Source: Deuterostichococcus epilithicus (Eukaryota > Chlorophyta > Trebouxiophyceae > Prasiolales > Stichococcaceae). Taken from it: a stretch of DNA of 64,000 nucleotides. The notes under the pieces are model-generated. The model did not search any database, was not told where the DNA came from, and was given only the letters and a program-made list of their open reading frames with translations. Within the stretch, counting starts at the first letter, position 1; each line of letters opens with the position of its first letter. The stretch covers positions 682,001 through 746,000 of the forward strand of contig JAVTLE010000007.1 in NCBI GenBank assembly GCA_033439295.1, in the 5' to 3' direction. Below, piece by piece: positions 2,636-57,274 of the stretch. The position numbers were made by a program, and so were the translations under genes.

Positions 2636-5600
2636 TTATAACACGACGCCAGCGGCGGCCTGGAACTGCACCCACGGCAGCACGCTCTCGCCAAACAGGT
2701 CTGCCACCGCCTGCAGCTGCATGCCCAGGTCACTGTCCTCCCGCCACGCATCTGCACATGAGCACGTGGGGAATGAGCACACGGTGGGTGAACGAAGCGG
2801 GGCGTTTGCCAATTCATGCAACCAGAGGCAAGCGGCGTGACGGACACAGGTGTAGCACTACAGAGGCACGGCCAAGCAGCCGAAGCATTGCCAGTACAGC
2901 ACAGCACAGCTCCTCATCACCTGCCAGCGCGTCGGCAGGGGCGTCATTGCCTGACGACTTGCTCCTGTTCAGTGGCTGCTCTTTGTGGCCCTGCTGCGCC
3001 TCGCCCTCCGCACCCGCGGTGTCTTCCGCTGCCGCAGCTGCTGCTGCCTGGTGCTCCGATGCAGATTTCGCGACCTCCGCGCCGCTGCTGAGGGCTGCTG
3101 CTGGCGGACTGCCGGCCGGGGCGTCTGCCGCCGTCGCCGCGGGACATTCGGCAGCAGCGGCTGCTCCACCCGTCGTCGCAGCATCTGCCGCTGCCTCAGC
3201 GGCACCAGCCGCAGGCTTCTGTTCGTCTGCCGCTGGTGAGACTGCGTCTGCCACGTTTGCTGCAGCTACTGTGGCTGATTGCTCGCCGCCCACTGGCTTT
3301 GCAGCGGCCGGAACCGCGGCTGGAAACTTCGCGTCCGCCACGTCTGCTGCGGCTGCTGTGGCGGATTGCTCGCCGCCCGGCGGCTTTGCAGCAGGAGCCG
3401 CAGCTGCTGGCCGTCGCGATGCCGCCGGCCGCGGGAGCGCCATCACACCATTGACCCGCCGCCTGCCTGACGCGAGCTGCACCGAGCCGCCTGGTGCTGC
3501 AGGCTGCTGCTCGCAAGGCGACTGCAGGCGCCGCCGCTTGGCGGCGCTGGGTGACGCCGCCAGCGCATCGTCAATCAGCCTGAGCGTGTTCACGTGCAGC
3601 AGTTGGAACTTCAGGCTGCAGAGAGCATGGCAGCAGTTCGCTGATGCGCCTTTGCCGGCCCCACTGCTGCAGACCAGGTGCTGCTGCAGGGCAGGCAGCC
3701 GGGGCTGGCGGTGTAAGACGGCACACTTCAAGCGGACGCAAGGTGTTCGGAAGCGATGCCCGCATCTGCTGCAGCCTGCAGAAGAGCTCGACAAGATGCC
3801 TCTGAGTGCAGGAGCCGGACCTGTCTGTGACGCCGGCGAACACTGCGCCCACGGCGGCCGCCTGCAGCGCGCCAAAGCACCGCAACGCCTCTGCCCGCTT
3901 GAGCTGGTTCGCCGATCTTGGCTTGCCGCTTTGCTCCTGCTCCTGCGGTCAGGCGGTGCTGGCGGTCTGCAGGCGCCTTGCATCGCTGCTGAGGGATAGG
4001 TGGGGCGCATTGCTGGCATGCAGGACTGGGAGCCCCTGGCGCCCAGTCGTACTATGCTCCCGCCCGCAGTGGAACGCCAGAACGCTACATGCAGCCGCAG
4101 GCATCAGTGCAGCAATCCAGCTGCTCCGAAGGGCGAGCACCGAGCAGCTGGTGCTTCCAGTCGGTGGACATCTTCCTAGGTTGCAACGTGATGCTAGTTC
4201 ACACGTGATGCTGCGAAGTTTTGCCTCCCTCATAACAAACCTGGGCGCCCAGCAGCGGCTTCAGCCGCGCGAGGTAGGGCGCCAGGTGTGGCAGCAGCAG
4301 CAGCCGCACGGTGCGCGGCCCCAGGGCTGCCAGGCCGACGATTGCGCCTGCGGCGCAAGCGGTCACTGCCCTGTCCAGGTCTGCCCGCCGACCTTGTTTC
4401 TGCCAGCGGCCCACTCGACTTGTGACGGGCACGACAAGCAGGAGGTGCAGTTGATGGCAGTGCAGCGGTGGCAGGCGAGGGAGCAGCTGCAGTCCGGGGC
4501 AGCTGATGCTGATGCGTGCAACTCCTGTCGGACCTATTCTCGCTCAGGTGCGCCCCGCAGGCACTCAAGAAGCTGCGGTTTGAAATCCGCACCATAGTGC
4601 GTGGTGAGCGGCTTCCCGCTGTCCAGCAGCGCCTTGACCAGCGTGCGGCTAATCCGCGGCTGGATGTTGTGCAGTGGGTCGCCAAAGCGGGCGCAGATGA
4701 AGCGCACCAGCCGCGCCGCGGTGTCGCGCACCGCCCAGTGGTCTGCCATTGGCGCATCCTGCCGCCGAGAGATTGGTCTCAGCCAGCAGCTTACTCATAC
4801 AGCAGACGCGCACCTGATCTGAACGAGATGGATTTCAGAGGCGGATGGACTGGGGCATCATCCGCAGAGCACCGTGGGCACATTCCATGTTGTCTCGTTG
4901 TGCCAGGCCCGCGGACTGCTAAGACCAAAAGCCGCAAGGTTCCAGTGCAGGCCAGGAACTGCGCATATCTCTGCGCGGCTCAACCCGAGGCGATGCGCAT
5001 AAGTACCAGGCTGATGGCAACGGGCAGCTGCAAAACAGTCAGAACGCTCACCCCGAGGCTCCGCGCGACAAGGCAGGTCAGCACAGGCGGCAGCAGCTGG
5101 TGCAGATAGGGCGCCAGGCCCAGGTGGGGGTTGCCCAGCAGCGCCCGGCCGGCGGCCAGCAGGCGGGACAGCCGCCCCAGGTCCCGCAGCCCGCTGCCGA
5201 CGCCCTCGCCAATGAGCTGCACCAGGTATGGGACCAGCGCTGCCAGGCCTGCATGACGCACACAAGCCACGGTTACATGAGGGTCTTTTGAGGACTTATG
5301 TTGAGGCCGATGAGGTGCATCAGGTACGGCAGCGTGGCGCCGCCGGGCCTGTGTTACACAGGAGATGCATGTTAAAACCAAACCATGACTGTTCTTAGGT
5401 ATGACGCCGACGTCCTCGCTGATGAGCTGCACCAGGCACAGCACCAGCGCCGGCAGGCCTGCGGGACACACCGCAATAGCTAGCTTTGTGACCCTTTTCT
5501 GAGGAAATGTGTTCCTGCGCAGCCCGCCGCCGACGCCCTTGCCAATGAGCTGCGCCAGGTACGGCACCAGCGCCGCCAGGCCTGCATAATGCACACGACA

Positions 5601-7538
5601 GTTGCTTTGTTGAGAGTTTTGGGGCGAAAGCATGTTGTGTTCGATTGGTTGCACAAGGGCGGCACCAGCGCCGCCACGCTTGAGACTTGCACTCCAAGTC
5701 GACTGGTTTTGATGACAACCACATCGCAGCCCGGTCGGTAGAATACTATATATGATTGAGAGCATTTTCGGTGTTTGCCAACATGGAAAGTTTGCGATGA
5801 AACTGGCCGCACCTGGATCCGTTGACAGTGACGCAAAAATGGCCCGTTCCAGCTGCTCCGGATTGCCGTCTGCTGCTGCGGTGGTCGCCGGCAGGGTGCC
5901 AGTGGTTGCTGCCGCGGTGTCGGGCTGCTGCGGCGCAGCAGGCACTTGGGCGGGAGCCGCGCCGGCGCCCGCTGCCTTTGCCACCGCAGCTGCAGCGGCG
6001 GCAGCGCCGTTCAGCAGCACCTCCGACACCCTGTCGAAGTACAGCTGCAGCTCCTGCGACAATCACAGGCGTGAGGGTCTTTGGAACGAGACTGACAGCA
6101 TGCGCTGGATTAACGAGACACTCTCCAAAACTCGTTGAACACCAACTTCTGCAAACAGTCTGCTCGACAACAAGCCCGAGCCCTCTCAGATTCACAGACT
6201 GCAGGACCCCTGCAAAGCTTGTTGTGCTGCTCGTGTTTCAAAAGGCAGGGCCTGTCAAGACGCCACATGGTCATGCCGCATGGAGGTGTTCTGCTTGCAA
6301 AGTGCAAGGGATATGCAGGATTGATCATTTTTGGAGCCAACGAGAAGCTGCATACCTGCGACAGGACGTGCTTGACGGGGGCGCGCACAACGCTGCCGTC
6401 CACCTGCTCGTCGCCGGCGGCGGACTGCCTACCGGCTGCCACAGGCGTCGCGGCGGCGGCGGCGGGCGCCGCTGGGGCGCTGGCACGCTGCCGCTTCCTG
6501 GCGCGGGACCGCTCCAGGGGGGCATTCTCGGGGATTGCCGGCTGCACGCCGTCAACGACCAGCCAGTGTGGCAGCAGGCCCACCTCGATCGGCGGCCGCG
6601 GCAGGCTCTTGCCGATCACCTGCCGCACAGTCGCCCCAGAACTGTCGCATCGATAGGAACGATGCTCGACGGAGCCATGAGACCACACAAGGCGAGCACT
6701 TGCAGACCGACCCGCTGTGCACCAGCGGCTGCTGCAAGCCAGCGTCGGAGCGTGGGAAGGGCCGCAGCCAAGCTGGCGATGCGAGAGCTCGTGCGTCTGC
6801 TGCTTAGCAGAGTCGAGCTTCGCTGATCAGGGTGGCAAACGATGTTGCTGCTGGGAGTCGAGCTTCGCTGATCAGGGCGGCAAACGCTGTTGCTGCTGGG
6901 GGGAGTCGAACAGAAAACCTGGTCGAACGGCGCCTCCCGGTCCTCGAGGAAGTACAGGTCCGAGTGGCCCGCCGCTCGCAGGAAGCGCGCCGCGTCCTTG
7001 CTGCTGTTCGCGAAACCGTACACCGGCTGCAGCCGAGGCGCTCAGCAGTCAGAGGAGGGGCGTTTGATTTCGGGGATTTGAGCGCGGCAGGGGACATGCA
7101 CCGCTAGTAGAGCAGGACTCTGGCGTTATGCATGAGGACGGTGCAGATGGAGGGTCTGCACAATTGTATGTCAGCACACACTGCACGCGCCGCGCCTGGA
7201 CATTTCGTAGCCGCAGGGCGTTGCTGATGTCATCGGTGGACAGCGCAGCCCGCTTGGAGTGCCGCTTGAACTTCACCGCCTCCTGCACGGCTGCGGCCAA
7301 GCGCAGTCAGTGCATAATGCTTGCGTGCACCGCAATGGGATGCAGATTGATCGATATGAGGCAATGTGGGCGTGCTGATCGGCTTGCTAGCGCTGGAGAG
7401 GACTCGGCGTACCTGGATGATTTCGCGCAGGCGGTATTCCACATCTGGCGCTAGCACCTTGGCCGCATCGGCGCTCAGCTTTGTGATGCCAACGCTGTCG
7501 GCTATCACCTGGAGCGTCACAGGCTGCACGAAGCTCAT
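2636..7538 (-). CDS. TAF6: TAF6, transcription initiation factor TFIID subunit
   Basis: Histone-fold subunit of TFIID (and often SAGA). The ATG at 7538 opens a TAF homology domain: exon 7413-7538 ('TKLSADAAKVLAPDVEYRLR') joins an exon from 7282 ('EAVKFKRHSKRAALSTDDI'). Next come 'YGFANSSKDAARFLRAAGH' near 7020, 'PHWLVVDGVQPAIPENAP' near 6560 and 'SQELQLYFDRVSEVLL' near 6060, which starts the C-terminal HEAT domain. HEAT exons follow: 'LAALVPYLVQLIGEGVG' with 'NPHLGLAPYLHQLLPPVL' (5040-5248), 'HYGAD'-containing 4534-4749, 'GAIVGLAALGPRTVRLLLLP' near 4350 and 'FGALQAAAVGAVFAG' near 3850. The tail is Ala-rich low complexity (about 3000-3560) and ends 'DLFGESVLPWV' before TAA at 2636. Identity is firm; several exon ends are approximate. 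Introns between 5250 and 5700 hold diverged copies of the HEAT exon. The promoter is shared with PP1. Confidence 0.9.
5300..5684 (-). repeat. four diverged copies of the start of a TAF6 HEAT exon
   Basis: The working exon begins at 5248 on the minus strand and encodes LAALVPYLVQLIGEGVG. Related segments lie upstream in transcript order at about 5305-5351, 5404-5462, 5519-5584 and, shorter, 5658-5680. Each full copy reads as a splice AG followed by 'G-L-x-A-L-x-x-x-L-x-x-L-I', then loses similarity. The copy at 5519-5584 is closest to the working exon. None has an obvious donor at the equivalent place, so they look like partial tandem duplicates in an intron rather than complete alternative exons. 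Confidence 0.8.
6811..6900. repeat. two tandem 45-bp repeats in a TAF6 intron
   Basis: Units 6811-6855 and 6856-6900 differ at two bases (t/c and a/c), and a short third start (agtcga) follows a gg insertion. The repeat sits in the intron after the exon encoding 'DREAPFDQ'. Near-identity points to a recent duplication. Confidence 0.9.
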
Positions 7539-19436: not shown

Positions 19437-22400
19437 ATGGACGCCTCACCCGCCAGCGGCGTGCCGAGTGCCGCGGCGGCGGCGCCGTTCACCAGCGCCG
19501 GACAGGCGCAGCAGGCGCTCCGTGAGCTCATCGGTGAGTGCTTCAGGAGCTTCAAAGCTGGTCCTCGACGCAGATGGGCAGGGCGACGCCACTGCAGTCA
19601 AGCACGTCGTGCTTCCAGTCAGCACGGGCATGACCGCACCCTGTGTCTGCGCCGCAGGCTGGCCCCTGCTGTATGGACAGGAGGGCTCCGCACTGGGCGT
19701 CACATGGCCGCGGGGCCTGCTGCTACACGGGCCGCCTGGCACCGGCAAGACGATGTGCGTGCATGCCATCGCAGCCGAGTTCAGTGCCGAGGTGCGGCGG
19801 CTGCCGGCCATGCCGCCAAATATACATGCACTTTGAGGCGCCTTTGCTGACTCAAGTCGACTTGCGGCTGACCTGCTGCAGTGTGCCGTGCTGCCTGCTG
19901 AATTTCGTGCATGCGCAAGCCTCTTCACACTCAGCAAATTGGCACTTCCTACCCTCACTCGGTCTGCAGCACAGGTGAGCACCGCTGGCCACTCCTTTTG
20001 GCGCCTGCAGGTGCACACCATCACGGCAGACAAGGTTGTGGGTGCCTACACCGGCCAGTCGGAGCGGCAGCTGCGAGAGGCGTTTGCTGAGGCCGAGGAA
20101 AAGGCGGCCGCTGGGCACCCAGTGGTGATATTTCTGGACGAACTGGACGCGCTGTGCCCGCGGCGCTCGGCCGGTCGGCCGCATGAGGCGCGCATCGCGG
20201 CGCAGCTGCTGACGCTGCTGGACGGCGCCGCGGCGCTGAAAGGTCGGCACCGGGTCTTCCCTTTCAACCTATGCTGGATGGCTCTCCACAGCGTGCTTGA
20301 GCTCTCGAATCACGCCAGCGCTTGGCTGGCCTCGTGCGGGCTCTGACAGCGCACCTAATCGCTTTCGCATCTCTGGGCGCCGATTTGAGGTCCAAGCGAA
20401 CCTCTGCGGCAATGCACACCATGTTGGCCTCCTGGGCGGCAGGCGCACGGGCGCTATCGGTGGTGGGGGCGACCAACCGCCCCAACGAGATCGAGCCGGC
20501 GCTGCGGCGCCCCGGCCGCCTGGACAGGGAGATACAATTTACGGTGCCCACTGCACGGGTGGGTCTGCTGAAAGGTGCACCATCAGCTGCACTATCATGT
20601 CCATTGCCAAGCTCCTGAGGTTGGGGCAGGGCTGATGGGGGTCCGGCCAAGCGCTCCGCATCCAATGATTCTGCGGCACACGCGCGCGTGCATGCATGCA
20701 TACGAAGCGTCGAGCAGCATCCACACGGCCGCAGGAGCGTGTCGCCATCCTGAGGGGCCATGCGCGGCTGCTGCCGCTGGCGCCCGAGGTGGACTTTGAG
20801 GCGCTGGCCGCCGCATGCATCGGCTACACTGGAGCAGACCTGGCGGCCCTGTGCCGACAGGCCGCCATGCGCGCCCTGACGTCAGGTCGGCAGCGTCTCC
20901 TTCATCCTCTACAGACAGGACATCCAGCTGCTGCAGCTGTCCTGCTGGTCCTGGCGGCAGTCGCCTCCGGGCCCGATGCCATGCACAACCCACAGCCGAA
21001 CCTGCACAAGGCACTCACTGCTGTTTGTTTCAAGTTCGTATACGGTGTCCTGTCATGCTGAAAGTTTCGTGCCAGAGATAGGCTTCTCGTTGAAATGGCA
21101 ATGCAGGCACCGGCAGGGATGTGGAGCTCGCAGACTTCGAGGCCGCCACGGCCGAGATCGTGCCGTCGCTGACGCGGGGCGCCGAAGTCGACCTGGCCCG
21201 CGGTGGGTCCCGGCAGAGCCCTGCTTCCTGGCCAAAACCCTCCGAGCCGGCTGTGTCCACTCGGTTTCGGCCATTGGCGAACTGGGGCCATGTTACACAT
21301 CGTCCAGTGGAGCAAGATGAGCACGTGCAATGGCAGCGCATACCTTGCTCGGCTGCCATCTGATTCTCGGCCCGCCGCCAGCCGCCACCCAGTGTACACG
21401 ACCCCGCAACCAAGGCGGTTGGCCGAGAGGACATTGGGAGGGCTTGCAGAGGTGACTAGCGCAGCGATGGCCGGCCACTACACAGCATGAGTCCTAGCGC
21501 GACCGGTCACAACCATAGTAGTCGGATGGGAGGACGTCGGCGGGCTGGAGGAGGCGAAGCATTGGTTGCACTCATCAAAGCCCAGTCCCCACAGGGCGTG
21601 ATGACGACGCACTTGGTTCATTACCCCGCAGTTAGCAGGAAAACCTTCGGCGGGGGAGACGGTGACGCTGCGGCTGCAGTTGCTTTATGGAACCTCTTTG
21701 TACCTGACACTTGCAGTCGGGTGGCAGGACATCGGAGGACTGGAGGAGGTGCAGCGGCGGCTGCGCCTGCCTTCTAAGACTCTGTTTCTGTCACATGCAG
21801 CCGGCTGGGAGGCCCCTCGGGGGGCTGGAGGAGGTCAAGGGGCAGATGCGGTGCTTTGTTGAACCCCTCCCTTCGTTTGCAGTCGGCTGGGAGGATATCG
21901 GCGGACTGGAGGAGGTGAAGCGGCGGCTGCGACAGGCTGTCGAGTGGCCCCTGGAGCACGCTGCCGCTTTCAGCCGCCTGGGCCTGGCGCCGCCCCGCGG
22001 CGTGCTGCTGCACGGCCCGCCGGGTGCGGCTCCAAACTCCTGTGCGCAGGATTCATTCACCGCATCCTGACATCCTACGGCAGAACGTCTTCCTGCTCGC
22101 GTGGCCCTGCCGCTGCAACAGTGTGCAGACCGTGCAGGCGCTGGAGCGCCCCGCTGCAGCCTGCCGCGCTTGTCGACAGCCGGCGCGCGGCGCTCACACA
22201 GAACGCCCGGCGCTGCTGCGTGGCGCGAAAGGGCAGCGGGCTGCGCACCGTTCCTGACCACCCAGACCGGATCAGTTTCGCTGAGCCCATCCGCCGACGC
22301 TCCCCGTGCGCACTCCCCACACTGCTGCAAAACGACGCTCCTAGCGCCGCCCCCCGCAGGCTGCTGCAAGACGACGCTGGCGCGCGCGGCGGCGGGCGCC

Positions 22401-24581
22401 ACCGCGGCCACCTTCCTCGCCCTGTCCGGCGCGCAGCTGCACTCGATGTACGTCGGCGAGGGCGAGGCCCTGCTGCGGCAGGCCTTCGCGCGGGCGCGGC
22501 TGACGGCGCCAGCGGTGATCTTCATCGACGAGCTGGACTCTGTGGCAGGTGGGAGAGGAGCGCCGCGAGCAGCCTTTGTAGTTGATCGGAGCAATGATTG
22601 CAGGTGGTCGAGGGAAGCCACCCCATGAGGGCTGCCATCCGTGCATCTGCGCGGGCTTGGGGGCTTGTGTTGTTCTCGCAGTCCCTAATCCGCTGCAGCT
22701 TATGCATCCCAGCCCAGGCGGCAGGGCAGGGCCGCACTCGAGGAGCCCTGCTCGATGAGGCCTGCACTGGTGTCTGCGCTTCATGACCCACCAGAGCAGC
22801 GATCCTGACGTATCCAACATCCGTGACGCGCAGCCACTCGAGAAGAGTCAGACTCATCGGGTGCAGACGTGTCCGCGCGCCTGCTGTCAGCGCTGCTCGT
22901 GGAGATGGACGGCCTTGAGGCGGCGGCGGGTGAGCATGCCAAATCGGAGTTTGTCTCGATCATCCCTTTGATCCGTGGCACAACCTGCAGCGGGCCAATA
23001 AAGCGCCAGGCGTCGCTGGCAGCCCTGCTGCACTGTCCCTCGGACGCAGCATGCAGTGTGCAGCGGCACGGCAACCCGCAGCCGGCTGCTGTCCGGGTGC
23101 TGCTTTCGCTGCAGCTGGAAGGCGTGCAGCTGGCCGGGCACCTTTCACATCCTGCGCTGTGTCCCGTTGTCTTCAGCCACTCGACACAGAAGTCCTGCGC
23201 AGAACCCTCGGCACGGACACCCATCTCATTGCATCATTGGGTTGCATGCTTGTGCTGGCGGCGACCGACTGCCCCGCCGCCGCTGCGCTGCTGCCTTGAC
23301 AATCAATAACGACCGAAGTACAATAACCGCACGCTTATTGGTGCTTGTGGCAACCAGCCGTCCTGCAGCTGTTGACACCGCGTTGCTTCCTCCTTGGCAA
23401 GGCATTGCAAAGGGATCCAGTTAGTGCAATGGAAGGAGCCATGTCTTGCGCAGGCATCCTGGTGCTGGCGGCGACAAATCGCCCCGCGGCGGTGGACGCC
23501 GCGCTGCTGCGCCCCGGCCGCCTTGACGTGCTGCTGTACGTGCCGCCGCCGGATCAGGCGGGCCGCCTGCAGGTGTGCGCTGAGAACCCTGACAGCAACA
23601 TATAGGAGCCCCAACATACTGGACGTGCTGCTATATGTGCCGCCGGAGGACGCAGACGGCTGCTTGCCCTTGTGTGCCGGCGCGAATCGTCAGTTCCGAT
23701 GGAGACCTGCTCGTCGGCGGAGTGAAGACCCTCCTGCCACTGCTGGGACAGGCACCTCTGCAAGCTGCAAAGGTGCATCCTTGAGAGCGGTTCTCGAGGA
23801 TCGAGCGAGCTGCTGTGCTGCCGGCCCGCCAGCCGGACAGAGAGGAGCCAGCGTGAGCGTGCGCAGGCGGTGGTGCCAAGGCGCAGCCTGATCCCGCAGA
23901 GCGTCTCCGTCTTCTGACCATGCGGAGCAAAGTTTCAAGGGCTGGATCTGCAGCCTCTCGAGCTTGCGGTGCCGCACTAGACCCTAAAACCGTGGCTGCT
24001 GCAGGTGCTGCGCATCCAGACGCGCGGCATGCCGCTGGCGGCTGACGTGGACCTGCCCGCGATAGCGGCGGCCACCGATCGCTTCACAGGTGCGCTCGGC
24101 GTTGCTTCGACTGGCGAGTGCCCAACCCAGCAGCGATGCGTGTTGGGCGAGCAGTCATAGCGGTTGTGGCAGGCCGGTGACACTCGCTGGCTGCAGCTAA
24201 GCACTTCGAGGTTGAGTTGCACCACTTGATTGCAGGTGCCGAGCTTGAGGGTGTGTGCCGGGAAGCGGCGCTCGTGGCTCTGCGGGAAGACTTAGAGGTC
24301 GGTCTCCCCTGCTCATGTGCCCCTGCTCAACGTCGACGATTCGTGCTCTCCGCTCCTGCAAGACTTCAAATTTCACACGTCGCCACGCAGCAGATTGACA
24401 GCCTCCTGCAGGTCGTGCCCCCCACCCCGTGGCACAACTGCCTGGTGCGACACTCGTGTGCGTCGTGCTGCAGGGCGCCACCGAAGTCCGAGCGAAGCAC
24501 CTCACGGCTGCGCTGCAGTCGCTGCAGCCGAGCCTGACGCAGGCAGTACTGGACAAGTTCGCCTCCTGGTCTCGATCCTGA
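19437..24581 (+). CDS. AFG2/SPATA5/CIP111-type tandem AAA+ ATPase
   Basis: Thirteen exons (19437-19533, 19658-19791, 20011-20242, 20443-20558, 20735-20885, 21107-21202, 21883-22023, 22360-22548, 22867-22929, 23454-23572, 24005-24089, 24236-24297, 24474-24581) close in phase to 530 residues. D1 has Walker A 'HGPPGTGKT', Walker B '[11 protein letters not shown]' and '[20 protein letters not shown]'. D2 has '[17 protein letters not shown]', the unusual Walker A 'GPPGCCKTT' (AFG2-type GCSKT), '[10 protein letters not shown]' and '[19 protein letters not shown]'. The family releases shuttling factors from pre-60S ribosomes; the plant member CIP111 binds calmodulin. Known members are about 780-1000 residues with an N-terminal substrate domain not seen here: either upstream exons were missed or it is lost. 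Introns before the D2 linker, D2 Walker A and D2 sensor exons contain copies of those exons. Confidence 0.9.
21424..21850 (+). repeat. four diverged copies of the AFG2 D2 linker exon start
   Basis: The working exon starts at 21883 ([17 protein letters not shown]). Copies of its first 40-50 bases lie at about 21424-21455 (weakest), 21518-21561, 21717-21770 and 21801-21850. The last three are preceded by AG and read '[14 protein letters not shown]', '[17 protein letters not shown]' and '[17 protein letters not shown]'. Similarity ends before the exon's 3' half in every copy, so they are 5'-part duplicates stacked in one intron. Confidence 0.85.
22318..22344 (+). repeat. partial copy of the AFG2 D2 Walker A exon
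   Basis: ctgctgcaaaacgacgctc at about 22323-22341 repeats the start of the exon that begins at 22360 (gctgctgcaagacgacgctg, encoding CCKTTL), only 37 bp upstream of it. It includes no further exon sequence. Confidence 0.75.
23247..23665 (+). repeat. echoes flanking the AFG2 D2 sensor exon
   Basis: The working exon is 23454-23572 ([20 protein letters not shown]). Copies of its 5' part lie upstream at about 23247-23300 ('[16 protein letters not shown]') and 23337-23395 ('[20 protein letters not shown]'). A copy of its 3' part lies downstream at about 23617-23665 ('[16 protein letters not shown]'). Upstream copies keep the 5' half and the downstream copy keeps the 3' half. Confidence 0.82.
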
Positions 24582-25784: not shown

Positions 25785-28031
25785 TCAGATGGCGGTGGCG
25801 CGCGCCCAGTGGGCGGAGTAGGGCATGCACGAGCGCGGTGTCGTGCTGCAGCGCATGCGCGGGCCTCCGGCGGCCTCGCTTCCGTACTGCATGCGCCACT
25901 GGCTCTGGCCCACCTGCCGCAGCATACAGCAGAGGTATGTGACCTGGCAGTCGACGCGCACTGCAGCGCGGCCACTGGTCTGGGTGCGCACTTCACTCAG
26001 CGGGGCTGCGCCAGCAGGAAGCGGCCCCACCCCACCCCACGCATGCTCGTAGCAGGGGTGCAGTGTGTGACGAGCAGCGGGCCAGCCGGCTTTCAGCCCA
26101 GCCCGCAAAAGAAATTCCTCAGCACAGAGGCTTGCACGCCCTGGACGGCGGACGGCGCATCATCCCACCTGCATGGCATCCTCAATGTCCCGGATCTGCA
26201 TGACCGAGTTCTGAGCGAAGGTGCACCAGTTGCCCGGCAGCTGCGCCGCCGCCTCCCGCTGCAGCATCGTATCGACCTGTTGGAGCATGGCAAGAAGCTG
26301 TGAAGGGCCTGCAATGATGCCTCCATCTCGAGGGTGCATGTGTGGCTGGTGTGACCGCACTGGCAGGCGATTTGCTGGCGATGTCTGCAGTGCAGACGGA
26401 CGCGTCTCAGTGCATCGCAGTGCTTGCCGGACGTTCAGGCTTCAGTCTCTCTGCACTCTGCTGCGTCCGGGCCACCCAGAGATTTTTCTCACCAAACCCT
26501 GCTCTTGCAAGGTGCCGCACCTGGTGGTCGAGGTTCATGATGAACGCCTGCAACCCGCTGACCCACTCACGGCACCACGCCAGCGCCTCGGCATCTGCCT
26601 CTGCAGCATTGGACGCCTTGCTTCAATCATGAGGATGTTTCTCATCACTACAACTCTAACTCTGGAGACGGATGCAGAGCGGGAAGCGCATCAGTCTAAC
26701 GGTGCCCAGCTGCTGCAGACGCTTGCAATCAGAGTCCCAGCTGAAGTACGCAGCTCGCAGGCCAGCTCCAGACCCACCCTCCCCATCCGTTGCTTTCCGT
26801 AGTGTGCAAGCGCCCACGGGGCACCTCACCTGACTGGCTGTCCGTGCAGTGGCTGTCGGCGAGGGCGCGGCTGATGGTCAGCAGCAGGCTGTCCACATCG
26901 TACAGGCCCCTCTGCGCCAGCCGCGCCTTGTCTGCCACCACCGTCAGGTCCCGCAGGCCTGCGGGACGTGCGAGAAAGCTCGGACTCTGACTCTCACACT
27001 GAATAACTGTCTGCCCCCTGAAGCGAGCCAATAACCCAACAACGCCGCGGTGTCCACCACCGCCGTGAGGTCCTGCGGGCCAGCAGGGTGCCAGGAATGC
27101 TCAACTAAGCTTCCTGCTCAGAGCAAGCCCAGAGGTTGTTGGCACAGCGACCTGCGCGAGGCCCGCGGGTTTTATGTGCCTTTTTGAGTGTCAGGCTTTT
27201 TAAGTCCACCCCTCGGGCGAGTCATGACGCCCATCACCCGTGTTTCGACTCTCGCTCACCTTCCTCAAAGGAGCGTCGGGCCTGCTTCAGGCGCTGCAGC
27301 AGCTGCTTGCCAAACTCGCGGCCAGCGCAACAAAGGCGCATCACCACCAGCGGGCTGGGACCTGCACAGGGTAGCATCAGCGACATTTGCAGCGCACCAG
27401 TGGACACCGCAGGACAGGGTGCAGCCGGTTCAGGCGCACAGTGCAGGTTACGCGCACTCGTGAAGGGCAGCTCACCGAACAGGGAGGTGGCTCGAGCCCG
27501 CTTTCTTTGCTGCGAGGCGCTGGTTAACTTGCCGTTGGGCGGCTCGACCATGCTGCAGCCGGCCACCGCCCTGAGGAGATGCCCTGCGGAAAGTTGCAGG
27601 AGTGATCAGACATTTAGACTGCTGTTCTGGGAAGTCTTGAACTTCTCACGGCAGCAGGCCGGTCACTTACTGTGCCACGCGGCGTGTGTGATGCCGTCTT
27701 CGGCTGCCAGAATGTGCTCCTGGCTGACAGGCGGCGAAGCGGTTTCGGAGTCTGTCGAGTTGCCTTCCTCTTTCCGCTGCTCGAACGCCTTGAGCCGCAG
27801 CGCCCGCTCATACATCTGTCGGCCGGCGCTCTTCAGGCTTATCTCCGCGACCTGGCCGCCCTGCAGGTCCAGCGTTTGCAGCGGCGCGCCGACCTGTTCC
27901 GCGGACTCGGACTCAAAGAAGAGCAGCTGCTGCTTGTGCAGCTTGCAAAACACCGACTGCCACACGGGACTGCCCGCTCGGCTCCACAAGCTGCCTCTGT
28001 ATGTCGGGCCGTCATCTCGTAGGCCCGGCAT
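25785..28031 (-). CDS. PH-domain protein with helical C-terminal region
   Basis: The ATG at 28031 starts directly in a pleckstrin-homology fold: 'GPTYRGSLWSRAGSPVWQSV', 'KLHKQQLLFFESE', 'DLQGGQVAEISL'. It continues over a phase-1 junction at 27671 into 'MVEPPNGKLTSASQQRKRAR'. Later exons in phase: about 27245-27365 ('REFGKQLLQRLKQARRSFEE'), 26830-26965 ('YDVDSLLLTISRALADS'), about 26690-26770 ('AYFSWDSDCKRLQQLG'), 26526-26600 ('CREWVSGLQAFIMNLDHQ'), 26172-26295 ('MLQQVDTMLQR', 'VMQIRDIEDAMQ') and the last exon ending 'YSAHWARATAI' at 25785. PH folds bind phosphoinositides or proteins at membranes. I do not recognise the helical remainder. The joins around 26690-26600 are not settled. Confidence 0.6.
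27042..27088 (-). repeat. echo of a PH-gene exon
   Basis: The minus strand reads AG then gacctcacggcggtggtgga (DLTAVVDTAAL), a diverged copy of the exon start near 26965 ('LRDLTVVADKARLAQ'). It lies about 80-120 bp upstream in transcript order and stops matching after roughly 45 bases. Confidence 0.75.
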
Positions 28032-30010: not shown

Positions 30011-30254
30011 CTTGCTGCGCCGCTTCTTCCTGTGGGTCCGAAGCAGGTGCACATGGTGAGCGGCAGGGTCCACACTACGCCGCGCCAACATCCGAAAGGA
30101 TCCCCAAGCCCAAGTGATGCCGGACATGAGCGCGGCATTCACGTTCAATTTCTTGCTCCCACACAACACACCTGAGCATGCCTAGATCTCGAATGATGAC
30201 CTGCAATTGCTGCAGCGCACTGCAGAGCAGTGCTGGAGCCACACCAGAGCAAGG

Positions 30255-37707: not shown

Positions 37708-40700
37708 ATGGACGAGGTGGCTGACTTTTCCAGGCTCACCGTGTGTGTTGGCAGTGTTACCAAGCGCTAGATTGTCGGCTAGCTCTTTGTCACCTTTGCT
37801 GGTGCTGTTGGTGGGACATTGGGCCTGACTTGTCTGTGTGTTCAGCCGGACATATATGGAGACGACATCTACGGCGACACATCTGACGCCTTCGCGGACG
37901 TCCCGTCGCTCAAGCAGCCGGCAGCACAGGCAACACCGGCAAAGGTCTGCGGCTGGATCCAAGTGCAGATATGTGTGTCCAGGTGTTGTGCTGGCATGGG
38001 TGGCTGACGCACAACTCCCCGCGATGCCATGCAGGCTGCACCCAACAGCCATGCGGCAGCGCCAGCAGCAAGGGCACGGGAGTCAGAGCTGGAGGTGAAA
38101 ACGAAATCGCTTTCATTCCTGCAGGCATAACACGGCAAATTCGCTGCAATATGCTCGTAACAGATGCTGTGTCTGGCCACAGATGGCACCTGAAGGTTGC
38201 CCATGTCCAAGCGAACCCAGCAAATCTCAAGACGCCTTGCTCTTCCGCCTGCGCAGGCGCAGCTGCAGCAGGCCAACGCCGCGCTCGACGCCTGGCGACA
38301 AGCCTTTGCAGCCGACAGCGCCGGCCCAGGCACCACAGCTGCAAGCCCGTCTGCGGCGGCCGCCGGCCTGCGGAAGGCGCGCGACGACGCCGCCGCGGCG
38401 CAGGCGCAGTTGCAGACGTCCACAGCGCGCGCAAACGGCTTGGAGTTTGCGCTGGCAGAGAAGAACCTGGAGAATGTGCAGCTGCGGCGCAGCCTGCACA
38501 CCGCTCGGCAGGCGGCGGACCCCAGCATCGTGCAGGTGGGCGTTATTGAATTTTCAGGGTTTTTCCAAATTCTTGTTTCATAACAGCTTTTCGGCAGCTG
38601 CCGCCGGACCCAGCGGCAAGGCACAAGCCTGGGCGGCCGCGGTGCACTCTCCAGTCGCCTCCTCAGCCTCTGCCCGGGTGGCTGGCGGCCTTGATGTCGC
38701 CTCCCAGTGCCCACCGCTGAAGCGTCTGTTTGGGACACGAAAATCGCAGGTGCGGCAGCTGCTGCTGGACCCGGCCATAAACCGGGAGTTTGCCCGGCTG
38801 CGGGGGGAGGTGGAGGAGAAGGGGCGCGAGGTGAAGCACCTGCAGCAGGAGCTGCAGGCGGTCAACTTCAGCCAGGACTCCAAGACTGGGCGCATGCTCA
38901 TGGCCAAGTGCCGCACGCTGCAGGTGCGACAGCGCCCGGCCCTAAACCCTAAACCCCCCGCATTTGCGGAGTTTTCGTGCAGGGTCTGTGATGATGGAGA
39001 GCGAGGGCAGGCCGGGCGTGTATGCAGGGCGTACAGGCGGCGCCGAAGGCGCCTGTCGTCGAGCCGGTCTGGTGCTGCTGCTAAACGAGGAAACGGAATA
39101 TGTAGTGTGAAGAACTGGCGGAAGACAGGGTGGGCGAGCTGGAGCAGAGACTCTGGCATGTGACGGGCGCCGGGCCCGGAGCCACAAGAAAAGTAGTTTG
39201 CATGAAAGCCCAGGACGACGACGGGGCGGTGACAAAAGCTGACGGAGGCCTGTTGTGCGGGCCTGGAGCAGACTTCCCGGCCGGCACATCACTGACTCCA
39301 CCAGCACTAGGATACGCTCCAGCCAATGCACCGTTAACATGGTTGTCAGCATAGCTGTCAATCCGAAACACAGGATGAAAACGAGGAGATGGGGCGGGAG
39401 CTCGCGGAGGGCCGCGTGCACGAGCTGGAGCGGGGCGCCGCCCTGGCCAAGGGCTTTGCGGACGACCTGCGCCGCGCCTACGCGCAGCTGGAGGACCACG
39501 CCGGCACGCTCGACCGGGAGAACGAGGACCTGCAGGTGGGACCCGCCTTTGGATCCATCTGGGTGGGCTTTCATTTCAAATGGGAGGCTCGAAGACGCTC
39601 TTGCGGACGACCCTCGCTGCGAATAGGCACAGCTACAGGCCGATGGTGTGTGGCACAGGGCCCATGGTGTGGCACTCAAAGCCCGGGAGAACGAGTATGT
39701 GCATGTGAGTCGCTTATGTGTCACAAGGAACACTTGCAAGAGGGATTCTGATTGAGCAAAAGGTGTTTGACAGAAGGTCTGCGTGCTGGAGAAGCATGGC
39801 CTGCAAATTGGGCTTGGCCTTGTATGGGGAGTGGAATGGGGGAAAGAACAGGAGGAGGAGAGGGGAGTGCTTAACGTGGAAGTGCGTGAACCAGGACCTT
39901 GGCATGCCACTAGACAAGGTGCTGAGGGATGCTCCTGCAGGCATGGCCAGGCAAACCGGGCAGTTGCGACAGCTGCAAAGAGCCTGGACTTGACGCGAAT
40001 GGACACATGAATGCTTGTGGCGAAAGCATTATCTCTTGAATTTCAATCTTGAATTGAAATTCAAAGAAAAACAGCCAACCGTGGGTCCTGCTGCGTGGTG
40101 GGTGCCTCCACACAGCACCTGCGCAGCAGGCATGATGCAGATCTCGGGGTGTCCTGCTGCAGCACCGGCGTCAGCCGGATTGCAGCACTTTTGAGCGATG
40201 CGTATCGGGCCGTGCGTCAGGCAATTACGATGCTGCACTTGGACTGAAATGCAGCGAGAGAGGCTGACAACACTCTACGTGCTGTATTGCAGGGGCAGGT
40301 CTTCCTGCTGCGGCGGCAGATGCGGGACTTGGAATCGCAGGCCGAGGCGGCACGCTCGCACCGGCCGCCGCCGCCGCCTGAGGCGCCTGCCGCCAGCGGA
40401 TACGACAGCCGCTACCCGCCAGGTGCTGCTGACTTTGGAGTCGCAGCATGCCAGAGCATGCAAGTGATCCTTGGCCGCACGGCAAGCATATCCGCCGGAT
40501 GCCCGGCACAGCCTCAGCTGTGCCAAAAGAAATTCGCCTGTGGACAGCACATCGTAGGTCATGTCTCGTGGCAAATCGTCGAAGTCCTCACATCTGCAAA
40601 CATTCTGGCTGCAGGCGGCATGGGCAGGAAGCGGCTGGCGCCTTCCGGTCCCCGTGATATGCGCGAAGGCGGCGTTGGCCGCGATGGCGGCTTTGCACGG

Positions 40701-41270: not shown

Positions 41271-44200
41271 TCAGTCTCCACCCTGCAGCGGGTTGGCCAG
41301 GATGCCGGTGCTGGTCCAGGAGTCGCCGATGTGCATCTGCACCGGCCGCCCCACAGAACCCTGGCTCTCCAGTCGCTGCTGCTCGTGCTGCGGCTGCTGG
41401 TGAGATGGTGGCGGCGGCGGCGGGTGCCGGTGCTGCAGCGCCGCCACCTTCATGCCGAGCGCGCGGACGTAGAACTGCTTGCCGCACAGCATGCGCACCT
41501 GTAAACGGCGTGAAAGGATCCGTTCAAGTGGACAACATACAGGCATCGTGCTCTTACCCCCGGTTCGCAAAACCGCCAGGAGCATAGGGCACGCCGGCCC
41601 ACAGGGCGCACCCAGCAGTGATCAGGCGACTCCCCCATCAGCAATGAGGCGATCCCCTCTCAGGACCGTGGAGCGCAGGCCATGCTGCTGCCGCCGGAGA
41701 GCAGAACGAACCCTGAACCCTCAAGCAAGCTCGTCACCTGCTTGAGGTAGACCCTGAAACCCTAAACCGTCACCTGCTTGAGGTAGACGGCGGCGTCCAG
41801 GGTGCCGGACTGGAAGGCGCGCTCCAGGGCATACAAAGTGTCCTCGATGGCCATGTCCTCGGCCTGCGCGCCCAGCGCCTGGCTGCACAGGGCGTCCGCC
41901 GCAACGATGGCCTCGTCCGCGTCCACCTCGCCTGCAGATGCAGGTTCAAAGACTCACACTCGGAAGCGACAGCTGGCTTGACGAAGCACACACGTTTGTG
42001 ATCGCCGCCACAATCGCGTTGTCCCCGTCCCCCCATTCCCCCGCCGCCCCGCGCGAGGAGCCGGAACAGATCGAGGTTTCCCATGCTTCCTGTCCTTGTG
42101 GCCGGGCAAGTTGCCTTGTGTGCCGTGTGCGTCGCATGCATGGGGCCCCCAAGCGTGTCCACTGCAGCCAATGCACCAGCGTCCACAGGCACTGGGAAGC
42201 CTGATTAAGCAGGGGCAGGCCCTGCATGTGGTGGCTGTCTCCGCCTCCTGCTTCCTCAGCCTCGGAGTCTGATGTCACGTGCAGATGCGCGGCGACAGGG
42301 TGGCCGCCGCAAGACCTTGCTGCATCAGCCTCGGAACCTGGGTGCGCATGTGCATGCGCGGTGACACATGGGCACCAAGCCGAGCCGGCTTGGGGGGGCT
42401 TACCGGAGGGCGTTTTCGCCTCGTTGGCGGCCAGCCAAGCCTCCACCTCCCGCCCCCGCGTGTTCATCTCCAGCACGCAGCTCTCCAGCCGGTGCCGCTC
42501 CCGTGCCATGTCCTCAATCTGGCGCACCACGCTGAACATGGTCAGAAGAGCAGGACGACAGCGGACGAAGGCACGTCCGGACCTCATTCTGGTCGGTTGT
42601 GCACCTTCCCAGCCGGTGCTTGCGCACCATGCCCTGGACCTGTGTCGCGATCCTGTCGGGTCCCAAGCTCAGGCTGGGCTCTGCTGCCCAGGACTCCTTG
42701 ACGTGCCTCCAACGTGTACGAGCTGCGACTGCGTCTCCGCCAGCGCACCAAAAGCACAGGGTGGGCCGGAAAAGACAGCGCGGTGCTCACCGCGATCTGC
42801 AGGTGGGCACCCCGCTGCGTGAGTTCCGTCTGCGTCTCCAGCAAAGCATTGGTCTCCGCTGCTGCCTGCTGCCCGGCCGAGGTGAGGCTCGCATGCAGCC
42901 GTCTCGACAGGCATGCGGTGGCCGCCTGTCGGAATTCGGCCTGCGCATTCAAGGCAATCCATATTGTCATACTGCCGCACGCTCGCACCAATATGGAGAA
43001 GCAATGAAGTGTGGTAGCACTCGTGGGATGGCACGCCCGCGAGGCAAACACATCCTGTGAGTGCCGGCAGCCAGGGTCATGCACGTTACAACTTTGTTAA
43101 GCTCGCGAATCATGCAGGACTGCACGTTCATGAAGAAATGCCCGATCAGAGTGGATCGTGTCACTCACATGCAGCTCCTCTGCCGGCCCTGGCCCCACAT
43201 CCGCTGGCCGCTGCTGCGTTTCAGACGATTCATGCTGAAAGTGGCTGTGCTGATGCTGATGCTGCTTGTGCTGCTGTTGCTGCTGCTGCTGCAACCGCTC
43301 CTGCTGCTGCAGCTTGGCCAGCTGCTCCTGCTGCGAAGCAGACAATGCACCGCCCCACAATGAGGCGCCATCCAGTTCCATTGCCGCATGAGCGCCGCCG
43401 CGAGCTGTGGCACGACCGTTGCTGTGGGAGTCGAGCCTGCTGCCTCTGCCTCCGGGAGGACTGCGCAGCAAGTGCACAGATCGGCTTCTGGACATATGTT
43501 TCAAACCGTCTGGAGTCTCCACCCATACACACTGACGCGCCGTTTTGTGCTGACAGCCCATCAACCCCCGAGCAGACTTCACTTAGATGTGGCGCAGCAC
43601 AGGCTGCATCGCTCCTGCGAAACGATCCCACCTGACCATGGGGTTCTGCTGAAAAAAAGCCTCATCCTGCTGCTCCAGGGTGTCCATGCCGCTGCCGTGC
43701 GAGTGGTTGTGCGATGGTGCCGCCGGCGGCTCGACCCAGCCGGGCGGCTTTGCGAACAGCGGCGGGCTGTCCCCAAATTGGATGGAGGTGTCGTGCGCCA
43801 TGTCCACGAGGTTGGACCTGGCAGAGAGCACACAGGTGCAGGGCGTCTGGATTTGCAGCTCTTGGCATGCCAGCATCCTCGTGTCTTGGCAAGCTCCATG
43901 CTCTGAGCAATGTGGCAGGCATTCACCAGCATTCCAGTGCACGGGTGACTCTGCGATGGGTGGCAATGCAATTGGACAGTTCGTCGGCTGCGTGCAGGAG
44001 GAAGGAACGGGTAGAAACTTGGGCGGGCATTATACGTGCTGTACCTAGAGGCGTCCCAGCTGACGATGTAGGACGAGCGCACATTGCCGGAGGCATTGAC
44101 AAAAGCGTGCTGTGGGCTGATCATCATGTCTGGCGTGGGCTCCACGAACAGCAGCGGCGCTTGCTGCGGGTAACCGTCCGGCACCCAAATAGCCACTGGG

Positions 44201-44781: not shown

Positions 44782-45090
44782 GTGCTCAGATCCTGCTGCT
44801 TCTGGTTGCCCTTCACTCTAATAATGTAAAGCAGGCCGTTTGCACTGTGTGTGCCACTGGGGAGTCTTCGCAAGGGCTCGGGAGCATGCAAACGATACGC
44901 GCCGTGAGCTCGGTGAATGCCCAGGACGATGAAAACACTCGTTCCGAGCGTTGTGCAAACCACAAAGCCTCCTAAGTTTTTCTCCAAACTGCTCTGTGCA
45001 AGGTGTATTGACGGTCAGAAGTTAATCAGAAGCTAATCAGTTTGTGGGCTGTTGAAGTGTTGGCAGAAGAACACCCGTTCTTGCAAAACC
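44782..45090. other. intergenic: TSG101 5' flank
   Basis: A 309-bp space between two minus-strand genes, AT-richer than its surroundings. It should contain the TSG101 promoter and the ankyrin gene's 3' end. Nothing specific seen. Confidence 0.5.
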
Positions 45091-54222: not shown

Positions 54223-54869
54223 AGGTGTCGTGAGCGAGCAATAGGGTAGAGGGACCTCTACCTGCGTGCGCCATGCAATCGCAACGGTGCGTGTAGGCAG
54301 CTCGAGCAGCAGCCGCTATCAGTTGCACAGAGCGCAGAGCAAATCAGCAGGCTCGAGTGTGCGCCGTCGGCGCACGTGATGAGCGGTAGCGGGTTGCAGC
54401 TGCAACCTTTGGACTGCAGAAGTGAGGCACTATCGGTGGCGCCAATGGGCTGTGTAACATTCGGGATTGTTTGACACGCTGTCAATATGCACAACTCCCC
54501 TCAGCGACAACCTAACCCTTAACAATTACCCGTGATACCTATGCGGCAGAACAGTGGCCGATGGTTCATCGTTTCGAGCTCGCCGATCATCATCGGAAGC
54601 TCATCAGCCATCAGTGGCACACGGAGAAGGCCTGCGCACAACAACGAGGACACGTCCGTCAGGATCAAGTATGCTGTGAGCACAGGCCAGTCGCACCACT
54701 GCTCAAGGTTGATATCTGCGTCCTTTTCATTGGCAGCATTTTCTCCAAACTTTACCGCCATGCTGCTGAGAAGAATATCCTACACATGTTCAGCACCTTT
54801 GCCTCCCATTATAAGGATATGGATAGCAGGGGAACCCCGCTTGGCGCGCCGCTTTGCCGCCGCATCGTC
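54223..54869. other. convergent intergenic region bL12 / RAD51C
   Basis: A 647-bp spacer between stops. Plus-strand frames from 54532 onward overlap the RAD51C 3' end and have no motif. Nothing else recognised. Confidence 0.5.
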
Positions 54870-57274
54870 TCATTCCCGTGGCCGCTTCTCGCGCTTGCGC
54901 CCACGAACACCCGCGTCCACAATGAAGAAGTCGACGGTGGTGGCGGGCAGGCTTGGCGACTTGTACAGGTGCGCCCGCCGCTGGGCGCCCTCCCAGAAGA
55001 GGATCACGCGCGTGGTTGCCTGGTGGGCCCAGCTGTCGCCTGCGGCGTCATGTTGCCAAAAAGGGTCAGGCAGCAAGGACTGAAGCAGGCGAAGACACAG
55101 GAACGCATTGCGGTTCTGGTCGCCGGGTGCGCCCAGCTGTCGCACGTGGTGATGGGCACGTGGGTCTGCTGCAGACACAGGAATTGTGCAAGCAAAACTG
55201 CTGCGTGTCATCATGCATTCCCTGGGGGGTGCAGCCCTCCCGGCTTTGATGCTGCTGACGAGCTGGCACGGCAGGACTGTCGACAGCGTGATGCACAGCG
55301 CCGCGGCGCACCCAGGGCAGGGATGAGCTTCGAGCCGCCGCCCTCCTCCGCCATGGTCGTCGTGATCTGGTTCGTGAGCACCACCTGCGCAGGAAACTGC
55401 GTCGTCCCGTCGGGCCTGCCAGCAGGTCGCGAGTGGCCCAGAAGTCGGCGCGTCACAAGCCGCGGCAGAGCGCTTGGCTCTGAGGCATAGGCACGGCAAG
55501 GCACAGGGGGTTGGTTTCGAATGAGGTGCGGACCGCGATGTCTCGCACTGCCGCCAGCTGCATGAGGCGCTGCCCCATGTCCGCCAGCACCCGTGTGCGG
55601 AGGCCCATGTCCGAGAAGCCCTGCCGGAAGGGGAACGTCACGCTGTCCACCACCACCAGCCTGACCTGCGCTCGCGGATAGCACCCGCATGGAGTTTGAT
55701 GTCGAGGCGTAGGCCTGTTTCCCGAGACGCCTCGAAAGGGAACCTGTAGATGCCTCGAAAGTGAAAGCACTGGCGCCGCAGAAACTTGACGTCCGCATGA
55801 GAGGCAACCTTGCCGTTGCCCGCCATTGAGTTCGAGGTTCCAGCCGATGTTCGCACCGCCGGGTTGGCGTCAAGCAGCTCGGGCAGCATGTACACCGCCG
55901 CCAGCAGCTCGGCGTGGTCCTTGGCCCGCACCACATGGATGCCCGCCAGCAGCCGCTCCTGTGTCAGCTCCCGCGCCTGCACAAAATCACAAGAGGTTGC
56001 ACACAGGTTTCGTGAGAACGATGCGCTCGAGGTGCACACTCGTTGTCGCGAACCCTGCGAGTGAAGTTGCGAGATTTCAGAAGGCGACTGGCGCAGGAGG
56101 CTTGCAGCATCTGAGTGCCGGCAGGTTTGGCGCGCTTGTGCCTTGTTGCTGGTCTGCGACCCACCGCAGCCTGCTTCTCTGCGCTGCTGCTGTGTCTGGC
56201 GATCTTCTGCAAGTGCTCGGCGAAAGCCGCGGCCATGTCCGCCACCCGTTCCACCATCAGGCTGCCCTCCGTGTCTGCAGCCACATAGTTACGTGGAGCT
56301 CGACATCGAACATTTCAACGCTGTCAGACCAGTGCCGTCAGCTCACGCATACAGGCACCTGGCCCTCAGATACTGGGGCCGTGTGCAGAGACGGATCTTA
56401 CCGATGTAGATGGCCTGGCCGCCGAGCCCGCCAAAGATTTTTGGTAACTGCACATCGACGGCCAGCTGCATCCTGCAGATGCAGGACGCCCACATCGGTC
56501 AGCTTTCCGCACGTGCCACTGTAATGTTGAGCAAGGAGTGTGACCCCACCCAGTCCGAGCTCACCCGAGTTGTGTCTTGCCCACGGCCGGCACGCCGCCT
56601 GTATGCGCAGGCCAAGAAGCATCACACCATCAGGCAAGAACGCGCACTATGGTGTAAAATGCAGCCATGTGCAAGACGGTGAGGCAGCGACTACGAGGCT
56701 GTGTGAATGCTCACAAAACTCCGCGACTTGGCCGGTTGCGATGCCGCCGCCCAGTGCACTGTCCAGCTCCTGGCAAAAGCTGACGATTTTGCGGCTGCGC
56801 GCCTCTTTCTCAAAAATGGCCTGTGCGGACAGACCTCCTGACAGCCAGGACGTGAAAGGACTCACGATGCGCTGGAGATTCACATGAGCCAGTGGACTGC
56901 ACCCACGAGTAAATCGTCCGTGGGGGCGCCGGCATTGAGCAAAGCGTGCACAGCATGGCGTACCCGCAAGATTGAACATGCGGCCCACCGAGGCATTATG
57001 GACCCACAGGACCTCTGCTGCGTCCTCCGCTGACATGACGCCGTCTGCGCATTCGCCATGTCCCGCCTTGTAAGTGTTGGATTTGGAACAAAATCATCAT
57101 GCGGCAGACGCTTGCGCAGGATCGTATGACCGGCAGACCTCGTGTCAGGTCCGACGCTGTGATACCATCGAGGTCAGCAGTTGTCCGAAAGCCTTTGTTT
57201 AGCAGTTGCTGACGCAGGGAAGGTGGGAGCTGCAGGGTCGCGACGTCTCGCCGCGGCGCCGGCATCTGTTGCAT
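54870..57274 (-). CDS. RAD51C: RAD51C, RecA-family recombination paralogue
   Basis: The ATG at 57274 begins a helix-hairpin-helix-like N-domain ('LQLPPSLRQQLLNKGFRTTA', then 'MSAEDAAEVLWVHNASVGRM' near 57030). The ATPase follows: 'LDSALGGGIATGQVAEF' (56710-56770), Walker A 'GGVPAVGKTQLG' on a small exon (56567-56601), 'LPKIFGGLGGQAIYI' (56400-56460), 'DTEGSLMVERVADMAAAFAE' (56210-56280), 'GIHVVRAKDHAELLAAVYML' (55860-55980), Walker B 'VRLVVVDSVTFPFRQGFSDM' (55520-55670), 'VVLTNQITTTMAEEGGGSKL' (55320-55410) and 'RVILFWEGAQRRAHLYKSPS' (54930-55039). It ends with a Lys/Arg tail and TGA at 54870. Motif order matches plant RAD51C, which acts with XRCC3 or RAD51B/D/XRCC2 in meiotic and DNA-damage recombination. 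An echo of the last exon lies in the last intron. Confidence 0.9.
55112..55145 (-). repeat. echo of the start of the RAD51C last exon
   Basis: Minus-strand gcgacagctgggcgcacccg (DSWAHPAT) at about 55117-55143 copies the exon beginning at 55039 (gcgacagctgggcccaccag, DSWAHQAT), about 100 bp upstream in transcript order. Confidence 0.82.

Follow-up and report, generated by a model that had tools for sequence, protein, structure and literature searches.

What process leaves decayed copies of exon ends inside the neighboring introns of a green alga? The question is raised by a window of 64,000 nucleotides (nt), positions 682001-746000 of one contig (JAVTLE010000007.1) of the Deuterostichococcus epilithicus genome (46.8 Mb, 21 contigs), in which G+C is ∼62%, exons are short, and introns are numerous. 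An earlier note on this window had described exon "echoes," diverged partial copies of an exon in the adjoining intron, and had explained them by tandem duplications that keep arising and then decay. Introns are usually held to grow through transposons and small insertions. We find that decayed copies of exon ends, splice site included, are real inside neighboring introns and strongly one-sided. A measurable share of long introns carries decayed neighboring exon edges, many with the splice dinucleotide intact, and these form a one-sided mutational record of possible intron lengthening and cryptic splice-site origin.

The sample comprised 304 kb: the window plus 24 further 10-kb stretches from elsewhere in the genome (L-numbered loci). 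Gene models were self-trained; a hidden Markov gene finder was seeded with a single PP1 phosphatase gene (seven exons) and then iterated on the sample. The splice consensus learned over the whole sample was (C/A)AG|GTGCG for donors and YGCAG|G for acceptors, and exon ends and intron ends are therefore alike. Model translations were mostly recognizable proteins, and Pfam domains fitted four of the six models scanned (TAF6_C, AAA in two stretches, Wtap, and Rad51); the same scan gave no match for the "PH" and Ser-rich models, "PH" being the label used in the earlier note. Certain gene models were merged or had absorbed echoes as exons. Every exon was aligned to the intron on each side, giving 1070 exon/adjoining-intron pairs from 535 introns and 72 genes, with a strict cut at a score of at least 20; introns shorter than 40 nt and introns flanked by predicted exons shorter than 20 nt were omitted. 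A match counted as anchored if no more than 8 nt separated it from the intron-facing end of the exon. One best alignment was counted per pair, additional echoes of the same exon were missed, and the echo frequency in the sample is a lower bound.

At the strict cut, 38 of 1070 own pairs matched, versus 9 of 1070 when the introns were reverse complemented and 14 of 3210 when they were foreign (three times as many trials). With a cut of at least 25, the counts in the same pair sets were 21, 1, and 0. Echoes are thus commoner in a gene's own introns than in introns paired with exons of other genes, the comparison that the earlier note had proposed as a check. Their orientation also agreed with its claim that segments upstream of an exon copy its start and segments downstream its end: 26 of the 38 own matches lay at the exon end facing the intron and 1 at the opposite end, while the 9 reverse-complement and the 14 foreign matches each included 1 facing and 1 other end. 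At a score of at least 25, 20 of the 21 own matches were at the facing end and none at the other; the single reverse-complement match was at the other end, and the foreign introns contributed nothing to either. An initial run on 467 introns (934 pairs) had given 30 own matches at a score of at least 20, versus 7 for reverse complements and 17 of 4670 for foreign introns, with 21 of the 30 own matches no more than 5 nt from the facing end.

Direct repeats were also sought without gene models, by an ungapped diagonal scan for copies 30-1030 bp apart. The first 20 loci (200 kb) yielded 118 direct repeats at a score of at least 22, versus 2 inverted repeats and 1 between unrelated loci; the corresponding numbers in the window were 26, 0 inverted, and 0 far. 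Among 63 repeat clusters, the best pair was exon/exon (as predicted) in 17 and intron/intron in 9. Where the offset was 80-300, 27 of 50 repeat segments carried a splice boundary, as placed by the gene finder, in exactly one copy; random placement of 50 segments gave a mean of 15.6 (standard deviation, 3.2) and a maximum of 26 in 2000 trials.

A skeptic might appeal to chance, low complexity, or gene-model error, since GCAG/GCTG repeats abound in this genome, the models derive from a single seed gene, and 12 of the 38 matches were not anchored at the facing end (versus 8 unanchored reverse-complement and 13 of 3210 foreign matches). Some of these 12, however, are genuine copies next to exon ends that were misplaced in the models (TAF6 and FIP37), and the reverse-complement, foreign-intron, and random-placement controls, the scan without gene models, and the conserved domains in four of six scanned models all speak against such an artifact. 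We regard it as very improbable; as the cause of the anchored matches it is largely excluded.

How common are echoes? Of the 535 introns, 24 hold the 26 anchored echoes, and these introns belong to 12 of the 72 genes. Every one of 20,000 permutations spread the echoes over more genes than this (mean, 20.0), and therefore some genes are echo rich. Among four loci fetched after the first test run (L021 to L024), L021 held five echoes in one gene and the other three held none. In the window, 3 of 17 models carried an echo at the strict cut, TAF6 being missed because the gene finder had called two of its echoes exon; at a looser cut (score of at least 17, no more than 4 nt from the facing end), 6 of 17 did, or 7 with TSG101. 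The earlier estimate that about half of the multi-exon genes show echoes is therefore too high, and the sample lends no support to the suggestion that they are a dominant mode of intron evolution. The loci in the window are as follows.

5174..5248, minus strand: TAF6, presumed true exon start (copy 5), running on into the conserved TAF6_C domain; inner end approximate.
5306..5348, minus strand: TAF6 echo, copy 4, in intron 5249-5383; exon part 0.68 identical to copy 5.
5405..5458, minus strand: TAF6 echo, copy 3, 0.83 identical; inner end approximate; part of an exon according to the gene finder.
5520..5581, minus strand: TAF6 echo, copy 2, 0.91 identical; inner end approximate; an exon according to the gene finder.
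5643..5716, minus strand: TAF6 echo, copy 1, 0.62 identical, the most diverged.
21717..21809, plus strand: echo in an AFG2-like AAA gene, copying the start of exon 21883-22023; TTGCAG precedes both echo and exon.
23244..23294, plus strand: AFG2-like echo copying the start of exon 23454-23572, with a 6-nt gap.
23328..23387, plus strand: AFG2-like, second start echo of exon 23454-23572; ungapped repeat, offset 121, score 29.3; the exon copy crosses the boundary.
23608..23677, plus strand: AFG2-like donor-side echo, a copy of 23511-23580 at the end of exon 23454-23572; ungapped, offset 97, score 29.6; the exon copy crosses the boundary.
27044..27080, minus strand: "PH"-gene echo of 26920-26958, the start of exon 26830-26958; score 19.5, edge distance 0.
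29738..29839, minus strand: Ser-rich-gene echo of 29855-29962, the end of exon 29855-30029; score 35.5, edge distance 0.
38592..38642, plus strand: FIP37/WTAP echo of 38753-38803, the start of exon 38750-38923; score 19.0, edge distance 3.
39597..39639, plus strand: FIP37/WTAP exon copy of 39453-39494; score 21.5, edge distance 41, off the predicted exon end.
42003..42033, minus strand: weak possible echo in the ankyrin/TSG101 model, acceptor side; score 17.0, near noise.
55117..55143, minus strand: RAD51C echo of 55013-55039, the start of exon 54870-55039; 24/27 identical, score 21.0.

Of the genes named earlier, TAF6, AFG2, "PH," Ser-rich, FIP37, and RAD51C thus stand. For TSG101, the donor-side echo described there gave way to the near-noise match on the acceptor side; the membrane-protein gene gave no exon-intron match at a score of at least 16, and an ungapped repeat of score 18.0 was found at 47180/47304. 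Three AFG2 exons had been credited with echoes. Two of them (21883-22023 and 23454-23572) bear this out, while the third has only long, GC-rich, weak matches (22109-22286 and 22135-22227). These two matches, in intron 22024-22359, stay among the 26 anchored echoes but are excluded from the 19-echo flank counts and from the codon counts (24 of 26 used) reported below. The ankyrin plus TSG101-like gene model (window 41271-46457) holds an in-frame stop and is probably two genes merged by the gene finder.

An echo consists of an exon end plus ∼5 nt of splice motif, with a median of 63 aligned columns (27-187). For the 26 echoes (11 donor side, 15 acceptor side), the offset between copies had a median of 131.5 nt (interquartile range, 117-163; 10-90%, 105-221; range, 97-265), and the spacer between echo and exon edge a median of 71.5 nt. 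The copies reach the splice site, as had been claimed: AG was present at the edge of 10 of 15 acceptor-side echoes and GT at 4 of 11 donor-side echoes, against backgrounds of 5.8% and 5.6%. Echo-bearing introns were also longer, as expected earlier, with a median of 420 versus 219 nt. None of the 26 exceeded 93% identity to its exon. Differences at codon positions 1/2/3 numbered 45/47/92 in trimmed and 87/83/114 in untrimmed alignments, placing 0.50 and 0.40 of them, respectively, at third positions (0.40-0.51 depending on the scoring scheme), where the neutral expectation is ∼0.467 if three quarters of third-position changes are silent. In the trimmed alignments, 18 of 23 gaps were not multiples of three. 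The spread over codon positions and the frame-breaking gaps indicate that the echoes are not coding now; at present they decay like pseudo-exons. Among genes with at least 3 introns, the median G+C at third codon positions was 0.874 in the 12 echo genes versus 0.843 in 53 genes (P = 0.006). Degenerate telomere-like motifs (CCCTAAACCC and CCCTGAACCCTGAACCC) lie near echoes in the 3' part of four introns (L002 3653-4073, L003 2803-3249, L001 8309-8822, and L018 9483-9851) and perhaps represent branch-point context or interstitial telomere repeats.

If tandem duplications across splice boundaries arose steadily and decayed neutrally, as the earlier note proposed, the intron sequence duplicated with each exon end should still resemble its source. 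As a group, 19 echoes did show intron-flank similarity (mean, 2.8, versus 0.98 for mismatched controls; P = 0.001). Individually, flanks rose above the 95th percentile of controls in 3 of 26 cases (L018 9483, L002 3653, and window 21203), and ungapped flank identity was at control level from intron position 8 onward (0.264, 0.228, and 0.319 versus 0.258, 0.273, and 0.264). We compared these values with simulations that assume uniform breakpoints in set ranges, exon third positions that change three quarters as fast as neutral sites, and splicing free of selection. With the indel rate derived from the echoes, simulated echoes of 84.5-94% identity averaged 24.8 in anchored flank score, and 4% scored 6.5 or less; the 8 observed echoes in this range had a mean of 2.2, all at 6.5 or less. 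Even under the harshest indels simulated, with 0.5 small and 0.2 large ones for each substitution, the flanks of high-identity echoes scored 6.5 or less in 59% of cases; by our own arithmetic, 8 out of 8 would then have a probability of ∼0.015.

Young echoes and intron-only repeats were likewise scarce. The simulation with the echo-derived indel rate returned 83 of 474 detected echoes at 94% identity or more, versus 0 of 26 observed. Exon-intron and intron-intron duplicates were expected at ∼301:200, or about two intron-only repeats per three echoes. Intron-intron repeats with a score of at least 20 and an offset of at least 80 occurred in 5 of 445 introns, those shorter than 100 nt being additionally omitted here; controls at any offset gave 3 (reverse complement) and 1 (foreign). 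Four of the five introns are echo bearing, so their repeats are probably echo pairs, and the remaining one is in L006. Steady neutral tandem duplication therefore fails three tests: the flanks, the absence of young echoes, and the near absence of intron-only repeats. What survives of the earlier proposal is the polarity, the extension of copies to the splice site, the longer introns, the repeated rounds, and some aggregate flank similarity; the steady neutral stream does not. The two halves of the duplicates, exonic and intronic, had different fates: either the exon half was re-copied or kept similar, or copying ends near the splice edge. Intron similarity may also have been lost in part because duplicates with a complete second acceptor were selected against.

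Two five-copy arrays agree with the idea of repeated rounds. The TAF6 copies start at 5248, 5348, 5458, 5581, and 5678 (minus strand), with spacings of 97, 123, 110, and 100 nt. Relative to the presumed true exon, their exon parts are 0.62-0.91 identical and their intron parts 0.46-0.59; copies 2 and 3 compared with copy 5 give 0.59 and 0.58 for intron and 0.91 and 0.83 for exon. Pairs lacking visible flank homology lie at ∼0.3-0.5. The L021 array, with spacings of 94, 121, 120, and 118, is in a gene that appears AMPK-gamma-like from our own reading of its translation. Its exon parts are 0.71-0.82 identical to the exon copy, and its intron parts 0.48-0.50, with 0.73 for the nearest copy; copies c3 and c4 give 0.73 for the intron part and 0.82 for the exon part. 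This array has no age gradient, the farthest copy being 0.80 identical to the exon and the others 0.71, 0.80, and 0.82.

Other repeats were noted in passing. The TAF6 gene has a 45-bp tandem repeat (two copies, 95% match) within an intron (window 6798-6900). The sole clear long duplication that is purely intronic lies at L006 6101-6409 (offset 157 bp, ∼150 bp aligned). Tandem repeats occur in predicted coding sequence at L001 5262-5505 (123 bp), L005 1394-1564 (33 bp), and L011 2846-3020 (33 bp). The PP1 protein, used as bait, recovered six loci filed under bacteria in genome contigs and none in viral contigs; at one (L025), on a contig catalogued under an uncultured Chloroflexi bacterium, a PP1-like stretch covers residues 9-293 in 873 bases with 54% identity and is perhaps eukaryote contamination.

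Our best explanation, which we hold tentatively, combines boundary-spanning local duplication with exchange that refreshes the exon-derived half. A short local duplication would cross a splice boundary, with one breakpoint in the exon and the other in the intron; splicing would go on using one copy of the edge, and the other would therefore leave with the intron and be tolerated. A second step would be needed for the exon-derived half to outlast the duplicated intron half as recognizable sequence. Most likely, the echo would be rewritten from the exon edge in short exchanges, by template switching or conversion across ∼60 bp of exon homology, and the intron halves would meanwhile drift. The echoes are local direct copies with facing-end polarity, a splice motif, pseudo-exon decay, and arrays at two exon edges; a tandem origin is our inference. 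The polarity supports duplication across the splice boundary, since random insertion of exon pieces or AGGT-type gain would not yield it. The great excess of direct over inverted repeats, the AG or GT retained at echo edges, the flank homology of three echoes, the group excess, and the intron parts of the arrays point the same way, as do the L021 array without an age gradient and the codon and gap pattern. Several observations weigh against this account. The flanks of 23 of the 26 echoes are not above the controls' 95th percentile, three of them at 92-93% exon identity (L021 4815, L021 8356, and L003 5676; local alignment confirmed the result for the two in L021). Exchange is expected to leave near-identical echoes, which are not seen above the 93% ceiling, and to preserve intronic repeats too, which are nearly absent; direct evidence of exchange was not obtained from the 304 kb.

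Steady tandem duplication and neutral decay alone would account for the polarity, the splice motif, and the group flank similarity, and would fit L002 3653, L018 9483, window 21203, and the L021 pair c3/c4; contradicted at the indel rates simulated, it is improbable as a sufficient cause. Copying might instead be limited to the exon edge: a templated insertion would carry ∼60 nt of exon end and ∼5 nt of splice motif into the intron next to it, in most cases to a point 50-90 nt away, with the rest of the intron uncopied. This matches the loss of flank identity from intron position 8, the similar spacers on both sides, and the rarity of intron-only copies; yet it does not by itself explain the restriction to the facing end, it is at odds with the homologous flanks at a few loci, and it requires an old pulse for the lack of echoes above 93%, so we judge it unlikely. 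Echoes could also be kept for a function; they might, for instance, act as decoy splice sites and so delay or control the splicing of long introns. Their similarity outlives the flanks, their introns are long, and the splice dinucleotide is kept in 14 of 26; in the 13 echoes of at least 84% identity, a subset picked post hoc, 40 of 64 differences were at third positions versus the neutral 0.467 (P = 0.008). Nonetheless, all 24 counted echoes together have the codon share and gaps of neutral-like decay, and 12 of 26 have lost the dinucleotide, making retained function quite doubtful. We think that exchange with the exon is the most likely cause, followed by edge-limited copying, with retained function third. 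Rather unlikely is a process that respects splice boundaries and repeatedly copies or refreshes exon edges (exon plus ∼5 nt of motif, no further intron) into introns; if true, it would point to a template or agent limited by splicing, such as nascent or spliced RNA, acting on DNA. Echoes permit a test of selection on splicing against such splice-bounded copying.

Four other sources were considered. Spliced mRNA should lack donors, and as sole source it is therefore unlikely for the 4 of 11 donor-side echoes that carry GTGCG- or GTGGG-type donors. In AGGT-type intron gain the echo should start at the far end of the intron from the exon that it copies, and the offset should equal intron length; offsets of 97-265 were shorter than the introns (165-803 nt) in 26 of 26 cases. 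Mutually exclusive duplicated exons do not fit partial copies with frame-breaking gaps (18 of 23) and, in some, stops. As for an introner-like or dispersed element, the genome was searched with two regions: echo intron L021 8356-8725 matched only itself and its own exon, and a search with the AFG2 region turned up 8 short matches elsewhere (49-126 bp, 74-88%).

In the Chlorella variabilis NC64A genome, introns reportedly contain pieces of adjoining exons (Blanc et al., Plant Cell, 2010). The intron and exon passages of the papers on the genomes of Coccomyxa (PMC3446292) and of Chlorella vulgaris (PMC6972661) make no mention of echoes. Among the literature matches listed, titles and abstract openings do not describe the echo pattern, its sharp end at the splice edge, or the lack of young copies. 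Boundary-spanning duplication itself is already known from single cases (PMC4974935); the tests of polarity, flanks, and echo age may be novel. Intron gain of the Rogers AGGT type (Hellsten 2011), as outlined in excerpts of PMC4974935 and PMC3443670, likewise involves tandem duplication near splice signals masked by splicing; there, however, a new intron forms between the copies, whereas in the alga an intron already present becomes longer, and the echo is located within it at 97-265 nt from the copied edge. The duplicated intron-exon unit of the potato RdRp gene, in the account excerpted from PMC4974935, comprised a branch site, a 3' splice site, and part of an exon, as supposed here, but it created a new intron in a single case, in contrast to a whole class of decayed copies that recurs across genes. 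Tandem repeats near the intron-exon junctions of two green algae (PMC3887541, in extract) are similarly concentrated toward intron ends, although the abundant intron motifs there are GT/AC dinucleotides and here they are exon copies. Decoy exons in detained introns, such as those of OGT (PMC12017769, in extract), resemble echoes in that they are exon-like, lie within an intron, and carry splice sites; the echoes as a whole differ in their neutral-like decay, with no sign of use or constraint in the DNA.

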